Source of the DNA: an uncultured Mediterraneibacter sp.
Lineage (GTDB): Bacteria; Bacillota; Clostridia; Lachnospirales; Lachnospiraceae
Direction: 5' to 3'
DNA length: 64,000 nt
Assembly (NCBI GenBank): GCA_944383695.1
Contig: CALWQP010000003.1
Location: forward strand, 1-64,000
Every line of letters starts with the position of its first letter. The stretch's first letter is position 1. Under the pieces are notes generated by a model. That model worked only from the letters and a program-made list of their open reading frames with translations. It was not told the DNA's origin and searched no databases. Of this stretch, positions 1 through 5,046 are shown piece by piece. A program made the translations under genes and the position numbers.

Positions 1-488
1 GGATAATTGAGTATTATCCTTTTATAGTAATATACCATATAAAAACAGCATTTTACCATTATTATCCATTTTCTGTTTTTATATAAAGCGATTTCAGCAT
101 TTAAGCAATCCACTAATTTTCCTAATAATAGATACTAACTTTAATACTATAAATTTAAGCCAAAACTTCATGATATTATCTATCGTTAGTTGACTCTACA
201 ATAAAAAAAGTATAGTTGCTTTCAAAGCTCTCTTTATATAAAACTCAAAAAAACAAGCAATAACTAATACTACTTTTCAAATAGTATAGCTATTACCTGT
301 TCTCAAATTTCACCACAAAATAATTATATCACAATCTCCTTATTAATCAATAACCCTAACCCTGAAAACTAGAATCGCATGCATTTAACACAAAACACAC
401 TTTTATATATTTTTGTTAACCATGTTCTTCTTTTGTATTTTTTCATACAGTATCAACATAAAACACACGGATTTAGCTTAGTACAATT
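1..488. other. AT-rich non-coding flank ending inside comEC; possible end of an integrated element
   Basis: This stretch is strongly AT-rich, with many A/T runs, while the genes to its right are of moderate GC. I find no convincing gene in it. It meets comEC at about 488/489, exactly where the ComEC reading frame loses homology. A short inverted pair ATACTA/TAGTAT lies near 268-288. The best reading is the terminal non-coding part of an integrated element (prophage, ICE or similar) whose body lies left of the window. No integrase or second junction is visible, so the type of element cannot be stated. Confidence 0.5.
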
Positions 489-1166
489 TATGGCAAGCAG
501 ATGCCCGATGCCGTTCTTCTGATACAGTTTTTTCATCTCCGCGTCCAGCCCACTCTTGTCTCCCAGCAGGACAGCGCTCATGGTGCCACCATAATACTCT
601 CCCAGATGTTCTGTGAGAACCTTCTGCCAGCCGGAACGGAGCTCACAGAGAAAATGCTGTACCTGATCCGTTTCAGGAGAAATGATCTCCACGGATTCCG
701 CCCATACAAGGACCTGGATTCCCCATCTGCCATAATATGCCTTCTGGTCAAAATTGCCAGGGTTGCGTGCGGTTTCAAAAACGGACGCCTCCCCGGATAT
801 TTTGACCTTGTTTCCGATTTTGATTTCCGCCTGATCTGGTCTGACATAGACCATGATTCTTGATTCATTGAATTTCTGACCTGAGACAGACACGGCATTG
901 TCTCTCACACAGACTGCCGTCACTTTTGCTTTTTCTTCGATCTTGTATACAGTCCCTTCCAGAGTAACTCTTTCTTCCCGGGCTATCTGACTCTCTCCAG
1001 TGCTCTGACTTGCTTCAGCGCCCTGGCTCTCTTCAATGCCCTGACTCTCTCCTACGAGCTCTCCTGCCAGCGCGGAAGGCTCGGCTCCCGCGCCAAAAAA
1101 ACACACTCTTACTGCCTGTATCACAAGAAACAGGATACATATCGTACATAGCGGCCGCTTTCTCAT
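453..1166 (-). pseudogene. comEC: ComEC/Rec2 N-terminal fragment, interrupted in the conserved core
   Basis: ComEC is the membrane channel that passes single-stranded DNA into the cell during transformation. This copy has an N-terminal membrane segment (about residues 5-26), a low-complexity Glu/Ser/Gly stretch (about 30-65), then the OB-like DUF4131 region with NPGNFDQKAYYGRWGI, and reaches the start of the competence core at KNGIGHLLAI (residue 226). Intact family members continue SGLH and run for several hundred more residues. Here eleven unrelated residues follow, then a stop in AT-rich DNA. The gene starts 10 bp after gerM and ends the comEA operon. The remainder could lie across an inserted element to the left. 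Confidence 0.8.
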
Positions 1167-4255: not shown

Positions 4256-4882
4256 CTAAATCGTTATATCGTCTTTTATTTTATTAAATACTCCCTCTTT
4301 GATTCCCTCGATCTGCATCAGCTCCTCAGCGCTTCTGAACTTCCCATGTTCTCCACGGTAGTCCAGAATGCTCTGAGCCTTCGCCTCACCGATCCCGGTA
4401 AGGGTCATGAGTTCCTCTTTTCCGGCTGTATTAATATTTACTTTCCCACTTACGTCCGCATTTCCTGTTACTGTATCTTCTAAAACCCCTGCGCCCCGCA
4501 TCTGCGCCTCCTGGACGGTCGGAATATATATTTGTTCTCCGTCCTCTACGGTCCGTGCCTGGTTGACTGCCTCAGCCGCAGCCTCCTCAGTCATGCCGCC
4601 TGCCGTCCCAATGGCTTCAAATACGCGCGCGTCTTTCCTTAATTCATATACTCCCGGAGCATTCACTGCTCCGCATACATACACAAAGACTGTCTCCTCA
4701 GTATCTTCGCCGCTCTCCAAAGCAGCCTCGCCTTCTTCTGATTCCCTGGCATCAGAAACAGACAGCTCTTCCAAACTCTCTTCTTCATCTTTTCCGCATC
4801 CCGAAAATACAAGAGATACCGCCAGAAGAGACATCATGATAAAACTCCGCACAGTCTTTGATTGTTTTAATCTGTCATGCAT
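4256..4882 (-). CDS. comEA: ComEA family helix-hairpin-helix DNA receptor (lipoprotein)
   Basis: ComEA binds double-stranded DNA outside the cell and hands it to the uptake machinery. The protein starts with a lipoprotein signal ending LVFSGCGKDE, then an acidic linker, an SLBB domain (VYVCGAVNAPGVYEL) and a C-terminal helix-hairpin-helix pair with VNINTAGKEELMTLTGIG. I place the start at the ATG preceded by GGAG rather than at an upstream in-frame ATG, giving 208 residues. A lipoprotein anchor instead of a plain membrane helix is a small variation. It leads the operon that ends in the broken comEC. Confidence 0.87.
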   Translation of the reverse strand: MHDRLKQSKTVRSFIMMSLLAVSLVFSGCGKDEEESLEELSVSDARESEEGEAALESGEDTEETVFVYVCGAVNAPGVYELRKDARVFEAIGTAGGMTEEAAAEAVNQARTVEDGEQIYIPTVQEAQMRGAGVLEDTVTGNADVSGKVNINTAGKEELMTLTGIGEAKAQSILDYRGEHGKFRSAEELMQIEGIKEGVFNKIKDDITI

Positions 4883-5046
4883 ATTTTTCTCCAAAGTCCT
4901 CAAACCAGGAGAGATACCCCTTTTATGCCGGACAGTAACATTGTAACGAACTTTTATCAAAATTACAATAGACAATTAATTCTTTGTTACGGTATTTACG
5001 TTTTGTTACAGGAATATTACATCACGGCCTTGTCTCTGATGCCCGG

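Follow-up and report, generated by a model that had tools for sequence, protein, structure and literature searches.

The window, by which we mean the whole 64,000-nucleotide stretch of Mediterraneibacter sp. DNA that was analysed, starts at base 1 of contig C3 in a 65-contig draft assembly. On its minus strand, positions 490–1166 encode the N-terminal part of ComEC, identified with Pfam by the DUF4131 domain (PF13567, E = 4.4e-14) and by the start of the Competence domain (PF03772, profile positions 2–28, 19.3 bits, which is below the cut-off of 23). A comEA-like gene with an open frame and matches to SLBB and helix-hairpin-helix domains (minus strand, 4256–4975) lies upstream of the broken comEC and belongs to the context outside the element described here. 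The comEC frame reads normally to GIGHLLA-I and then continues as NCTKLNPCVLC up to a stop codon at 453–455, so that its translation ends in a tail derived from the element (minus strand, 453–489). The DNA from the contig end to the break (1–489) is AT-rich and contains no recognised gene, with a GC content of 25.7% in 1–487 vs 51.2% in 488–2000. Its end is common to several relatives, and we assign it to the left end of an element, named family A, which is cut by the contig end at position 1. A preliminary description of the sequence had stated that comEC is cut at its conserved GHLLAI core, at about 488/489, by AT-rich DNA that adds eleven unrelated residues and a stop. This stands, with the break now placed at 489/490–491, 1–3 bp away. 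As the window begins at a contig end, the rest of the locus was out of sight for that description. A perfect 7-bp inverted repeat (GGATAAT-tgagt-ATTATCC) is present at the contig start, in window positions 1–19. The nearest comEC relatives of the window carry Mediterraneibacter names, and many of them come from chicken, judging by name.

The 3′ part of comEC, for which the preliminary description had suggested a search, was found in the same genome on contig C55 (L004:397–2115), beside the other end of the element. When the genome was searched with the Pfam Competence family only two places were returned, covering profile positions 2–28 in the window and 28–266 on C55; the two comEC parts are complementary and split the domain at position 28. 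The C55 part starts with ISGLHM and is open through the metallo-beta-lactamase-like domain. Ahead of it are 320 bp of element DNA, preceded by a 76–77-bp repeat that is found at the ends of three contigs of this genome, C55 (L004:1–77), C20 (L017:13898–13973) and C5 (L053:7215–7291). We read this repeat as the probable terminus of a multi-copy insertion sequence that was left unassembled, located inside the element on C55. The copy of the right end in a second genome, G419, lacks the repeat, and an open frame crosses that place. A second copy of the sequence next to window base 1 was not found in the window's genome. One contig of this assembly (L083, 5.9 kb) is unlike the rest, with 19% GC and low-complexity repeats, and is possibly foreign DNA.

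The crossover can be located by the species-specific letters of comEC on both sides, which end before and restart after the dinucleotide AT at window positions 490–491, common to comEC and the element. The left joins read GCC-AT-AAATTGTAC in the window, GCC-AT-AAATAGTAC in L024 and L028, GCC-AT-AAATAATAC in L031 and GCT-AT-AAATAGTAC in L034. In the right joins, GAAAATT-AT precedes ATCAGGG in the window's genome, ATCAGGC in G403, CTCCGGC in G399, CTCCGGG in G397 and TTCGGGT in G419. The sequence common to host and element is therefore AT, 2 bp and nothing longer, and in place of the short direct repeat that had been anticipated at both junctions only this dinucleotide is shared. The terminal ~110 bp of the left end are common to the window, L024, L028, L031 and L034, and the window and L031 ends have 72% identity over 265 bp. 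These ~110 bp hold two direct TGTGTTTTGTGT-like motifs of 12 bp, which sequence comparison places on the minus strand of the window at 456–467 (TGTGTTTTATGT, the first copy) and 388–399 (TGTGTTTTGTGT, the second copy). The right end comprises ~150 conserved bp forming an imperfect palindrome, in which TGTGTATTGTGT-like letters also occur. Mean column identity is 89% for the right end and 73% for the left end with its flank. The 12-bp motifs of the left end, kept in the relatives, and the TGTGTATTGTGT-like letters of the right end are candidate recombinase-binding sites. The element pieces have 31–34% GC vs 50–53% in host DNA.

The predicted single-stranded DNA fold of the G403 right-end strand beats its shuffles (z = −5.2, 0/200). 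In the fold of five right-end sequences, two of which (from the window's genome and G419) are identical in the element part, 4 of the 54 predicted pairs show changes in both partners, and 8 of 54 are interrupted by a mismatch or a gap in one or two of the sequences. A search of 10 sources (85,159 bases) with Rfam at the gathering threshold returned one tRNA only, and no group I or group II intron family at the ends.

To describe the recurrence of the break we used 21 comEC relatives, picked by N-terminal peptide patterns, so the proportions among them are not a population estimate. Fifteen are unbroken at GHLLAISG, including L040, whose frame stops early elsewhere. Four (L024, L028, L031 and L034) share the exact break position of the window and have a similar end (family A), and two (L033 and L039) are cut 6 bp further on and have another end (family B). 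With the window included, 7 of these 22 pattern-chosen loci are broken at the motif. At the level of the genus, the family A left junction was present in 5 of 58 Mediterraneibacter genomes (0 for a reversed-pattern control), and matches to the right end were present in 6, with 5 adjoining a comEC 3′ part. A 22-bp right-end match in G451 was excluded from the carrier count because it sits in a transporter-like gene region and not in comEC. Left and right ends combined give 6 carriers among the 58 genomes (G000, G397, G399, G403, G419 and G449), with one dinucleotide throughout. Both ends were seen in the window's own genome, G397, G399 and G403, and one end in G419 and in G449; the comEC 3′ part was not found in the G449 assembly, which is 84% complete. 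Although the two ends were searched for without presupposing an orientation, this is constant, with 5/5 left ends toward the comEC 5′ part and 5/5 right ends toward the 3′ part.

Sampling 397 genomes from across the family recovered the right end in the window's genome and as one 30-bp match, and the left end in the window's genome and in seven others as matches of 24–40 bp, which we judged to be due to chance. Three pattern searches of IMG/VR for the family A ends gave 0 matches, and a looser junction pattern retrieved three contigs whose translation is not ComEC. The comEC alignment A1 gave 15 stretches in IMG/VR, none of them confirmed, and the right end had no match in the plasmid and phage collections.

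The right ends of the window's genome and of G419 are identical in 320 of 320 bp, whereas the adjoining comEC sequences are only 63.5% identical over 1651 bp, which indicates that the element moved horizontally between the two species. Similarly, the elements of G403 and G397 agree in 766 of 777 bp, with comEC sequences that are alignable only in pieces, at 67–80%. Over 1785 bp, L030, whose comEC is unbroken, matches the G419 flank with 96.0% identity, and on this alignment L030 and G419 represent the empty and the occupied site in near sisters. The G419 sequence upstream of the common right end had no match in the window's genome, in a search that was run without a positive control.

Site-specific integration into comEC, which the preliminary description had put forward, is strongly supported by these sequence comparisons, namely by the recovery of the 3′ part, the same dinucleotide in six genomes, the constant orientation, the conserved ends and the existence of unbroken relatives. 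Very probably, comEC was broken by a horizontally moving, AT-rich element of family A, which enters at a fixed dinucleotide and in one orientation by means of a site-specific recombinase. This recombinase, encoded in the unassembled middle of the element or provided in trans, would join an attP site (GAAAATT-AT-AAATARTAC) to an attB site in comEC (GCY-AT-HTCNGG), the entry point being the codons for GHLLA-I-SG. Since these codons are the best-conserved stretch of comEC, the same attB would be offered by many species. As predicted from the reading frames, full-length ComEC is not makeable with the element in place, and this may protect the element from removal by transformation. The finding is relevant to the proposal that mobile elements switch off transformation in order to escape removal, and the attB and attP sequences supplied here are open to direct testing.

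The same codons are also used by other elements. The record of the Dorea phage NatCom_31361 (PV036443.1) ends in a comEC 5′ part, joined at ATTTCTGG-TGTTAAGAC, which places the integration site of this phage in comEC, and it encodes a large serine recombinase of 467 aa. The broken comEC 5′ part (PV036443.1:1–442, L015:19805–20246) is annotated there merely as similar to a hypothetical protein. L033 and L039 are likewise joined to comEC after GG, with TGTTCAAAC. The phage and family B resemble family A in joining within the GHLLAISG codons, but differ from it in joining after GG, 6 bp downstream, and in having other element ends. Judged by these joins, two element types with unlike ends occupy neighbouring positions of the same codons, most likely because these are the best conserved in comEC and so are kept across species. 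Family B was seen here in its joins on the comEC 5′ side, and its junction pattern gave 0 matches in IMG/VR. By eye, a DNA methyltransferase-like ORF lies beside the family B insertion in L033 (10681 onward), and type I specificity-subunit-like ORFs and a tyrosine recombinase-like ORF beside that in L039 (10627 onward). The GHLLAISG codons appear to be a recurrently used docking site, sharply defined within a DNA-uptake gene, at which two or more element families, unlike in their ends, insert.

Listeria phages insert into comK, and the likeness to phage insertion in a competence gene that was drawn in the preliminary description is apt, as the Dorea phage, which encodes a large serine recombinase, joins comEC at almost this position. 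In streptococci, Phi1207.3 (Tn1207.3) and relatives such as Phi10394.4 encode serine recombinases and enter comEC (comEC/celB) of Streptococcus pyogenes site-specifically at a GA dinucleotide, which is duplicated (PMC4260502). Family A likewise uses a dinucleotide in comEC, but its core is AT and no phage or linked serine recombinase was seen. Prophages in comYC and comFA, and a mefA cassette in pneumococcal comEC, are discussed as blocks to transformation in PMC4774983 and PMC12637031, the latter also mentioning transposons in pneumococcal comEC, and transposable elements are reported in Piscirickettsia comEC (PMC12955456). The prophages and islands in comYC, comFA and comM (PMC4774983) share with family A the breaking of a DNA-uptake gene by a mobile element, whereas the genes and the elements are different. 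A full-text search, with subscription papers and preprints outside its coverage and the papers retrieved judged by title, found no report of this element. Phage entry into comEC is thus already known, and the novelty lies in the element family, the sharply defined site and the hosts, which are gut Lachnospiraceae.

A recombinase gene had also been expected beside the break, and none is linked to family A in the pieces scanned, which comprise 9.2 kb in L028, 6 kb in L034 and 2.2 kb on the right side in G403, the scan covering the proteins of these pieces except for two small ORFs of L028 and not extending to the short end in L024. No single contig crosses a family A element in any assembly, and because the contigs end inside the element no recombinase could be tied to it. 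As for the class of the enzyme, which we leave open, a core of 2 bp favours a recombinase of the serine type, whereas the constant orientation with a palindromic core, together with the repeated motifs, points away from a simple one.

The integration reading has a narrower form, in which family A is a prophage or island that, like the Dorea phage joined to comEC 6 bp further on, is moved by a large serine recombinase of its own, encoded in the middle that was not assembled. We consider this somewhat less likely than not. Serine recombinases use 2-bp cores such as the one seen here, the Dorea phage combines its enzyme with a comEC junction, and the window's genome has one gene of this kind, on C20. 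Large serine recombinases (PF07508) were indeed found in most carriers (one in the window's genome, two in G397, one in G403, five in G419 and one in G449), but the G399 assembly, 94% complete, has none, and those of different carriers are at most 41% identical, with none common to the carriers in these incomplete assemblies. Furthermore, no phage structural or lysis genes were found in the element pieces scanned with Pfam, and the orientation is constant, which a palindromic AT core alone would not fix for a simple serine recombinase. The gene on C20, the sole large serine recombinase found in the window's genome (L017:11407–13353, 648 aa, at the contig end), was rejected as the integrase, because its neighbours are chromosomal sugar genes and its identity to the large serine recombinases of the other carriers does not exceed 41%. 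The tandem serine recombinases of G419 (C8) were also set aside, being located beside phage-lysis-like ORFs (by eye) and having no similarity to the element ends. Tyrosine recombinases are present in all six carriers, none of them linked to an element end: a pair in G403 and G419 is beside a chromosomal-looking 6-kb stretch of 96% identity, with for example a hisF-like gene, and a fragment on C59 of the window's genome adjoins a gpmI-like gene (both by eye) and has no link to the element.

Less likely, family A is a separate, non-autonomous, defence-carrying island with no recombinase at either end, whose palindromic right end and 12-bp motifs would be read in trans by a recombinase from the chromosome or from phages docking in the same comEC codons. 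The lack of a recombinase in the pieces beside the ends is in agreement with this, as is the second element family in the same codons, but most of each element is unseen, and we consider such a dependence unlikely. If true, the GHLLAISG codons would be a docking site contested by phages and rival defence islands in gut Lachnospiraceae, for which the host would pay with the loss of DNA uptake.

Returning to integration at a fixed site, a regulated switch, by which the element would exit and re-enter comEC to turn DNA uptake on and off, appears improbable. Both comEC halves of the window's genome are open, and their dN/dS against three unbroken relatives (0.16–0.29 for the 5′ part and 0.16–0.24 for the 3′ part) is near that of the relatives among themselves (0.22–0.31 and 0.15–0.17), which suggests that the break is either young or regularly undone. 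However, a young insertion predicts the same dN/dS, and the nearest 3′ pair, that with L021, has a somewhat high value (0.24), above the unbroken range. In G419 the 3′ part contains a stop codon (L063:1269–1271), absent from its near sister L030, so excision would not restore comEC there, and in G403 the 3′ frame ends slightly short of the matched stretch. Neither empty-site nor circle sequence was found in the carrier assemblies searched. By comparison, the island SpyCIM1, which breaks mutL in Streptococcus pyogenes, is reported to exit and return (PMC4689407), whereas no excision was seen for family A.

A chance hit in comEC by an ordinary transposon or insertion sequence is very improbable. 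The right end is palindromic, and 30 bp of it are similar to DNA next to an ORF in G079 that by eye is IS630-like, but one dinucleotide and one orientation recur in six genomes, the ends are long, conserved and unequal, and the cargo is large and varied. In addition, a target duplication of ~5 bp is expected for Tn7-like and DDE transposons, against at most 2 bp common here. Finally, an assembly artefact, which the preliminary description had allowed for as a join at position 488 and which the location of the junction 489 bp from the contig end of a draft might suggest, can be dismissed, because the same left junction occurs in four independent assemblies (L024, L028, L031 and L034) and the same right junction in four other genomes.

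The genes carried beside the left ends of family A differ between species. In G403 (L028) they encode a 634-aa protein with no Pfam match, an Xre-type regulator, a NUDIX protein, a protein with a weak TIR match below the cut-off, an adenylosuccinate synthetase and a deoxynucleoside kinase, and in G397 (L034) a 1305-aa SIR2-AAA protein and a second SIR2-like protein. The neighbouring genes on the right side also differ between three groups, namely the window's genome with G419, G403 with G397, and G399. PADLOC matched five of ten cargo proteins (proteins 1, 2, 5, 8 and 9 had no match), with the NUDIX protein assigned to PDC-S07 (5e-17), a Tmn-like piece on the right side of G403 (5.1e-7), a TIR effector (1.3e-6) and weaker values for the remainder. 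From these matches, part of the cargo is best termed defence-like, rather than defence. In the G403 island, the genes for the weak-TIR protein, the adenylosuccinate synthetase and the deoxynucleoside kinase follow each other in a run (L028:10933–13936), and together they may form a defence system, or one that alters nucleotides, of a kind not yet described.
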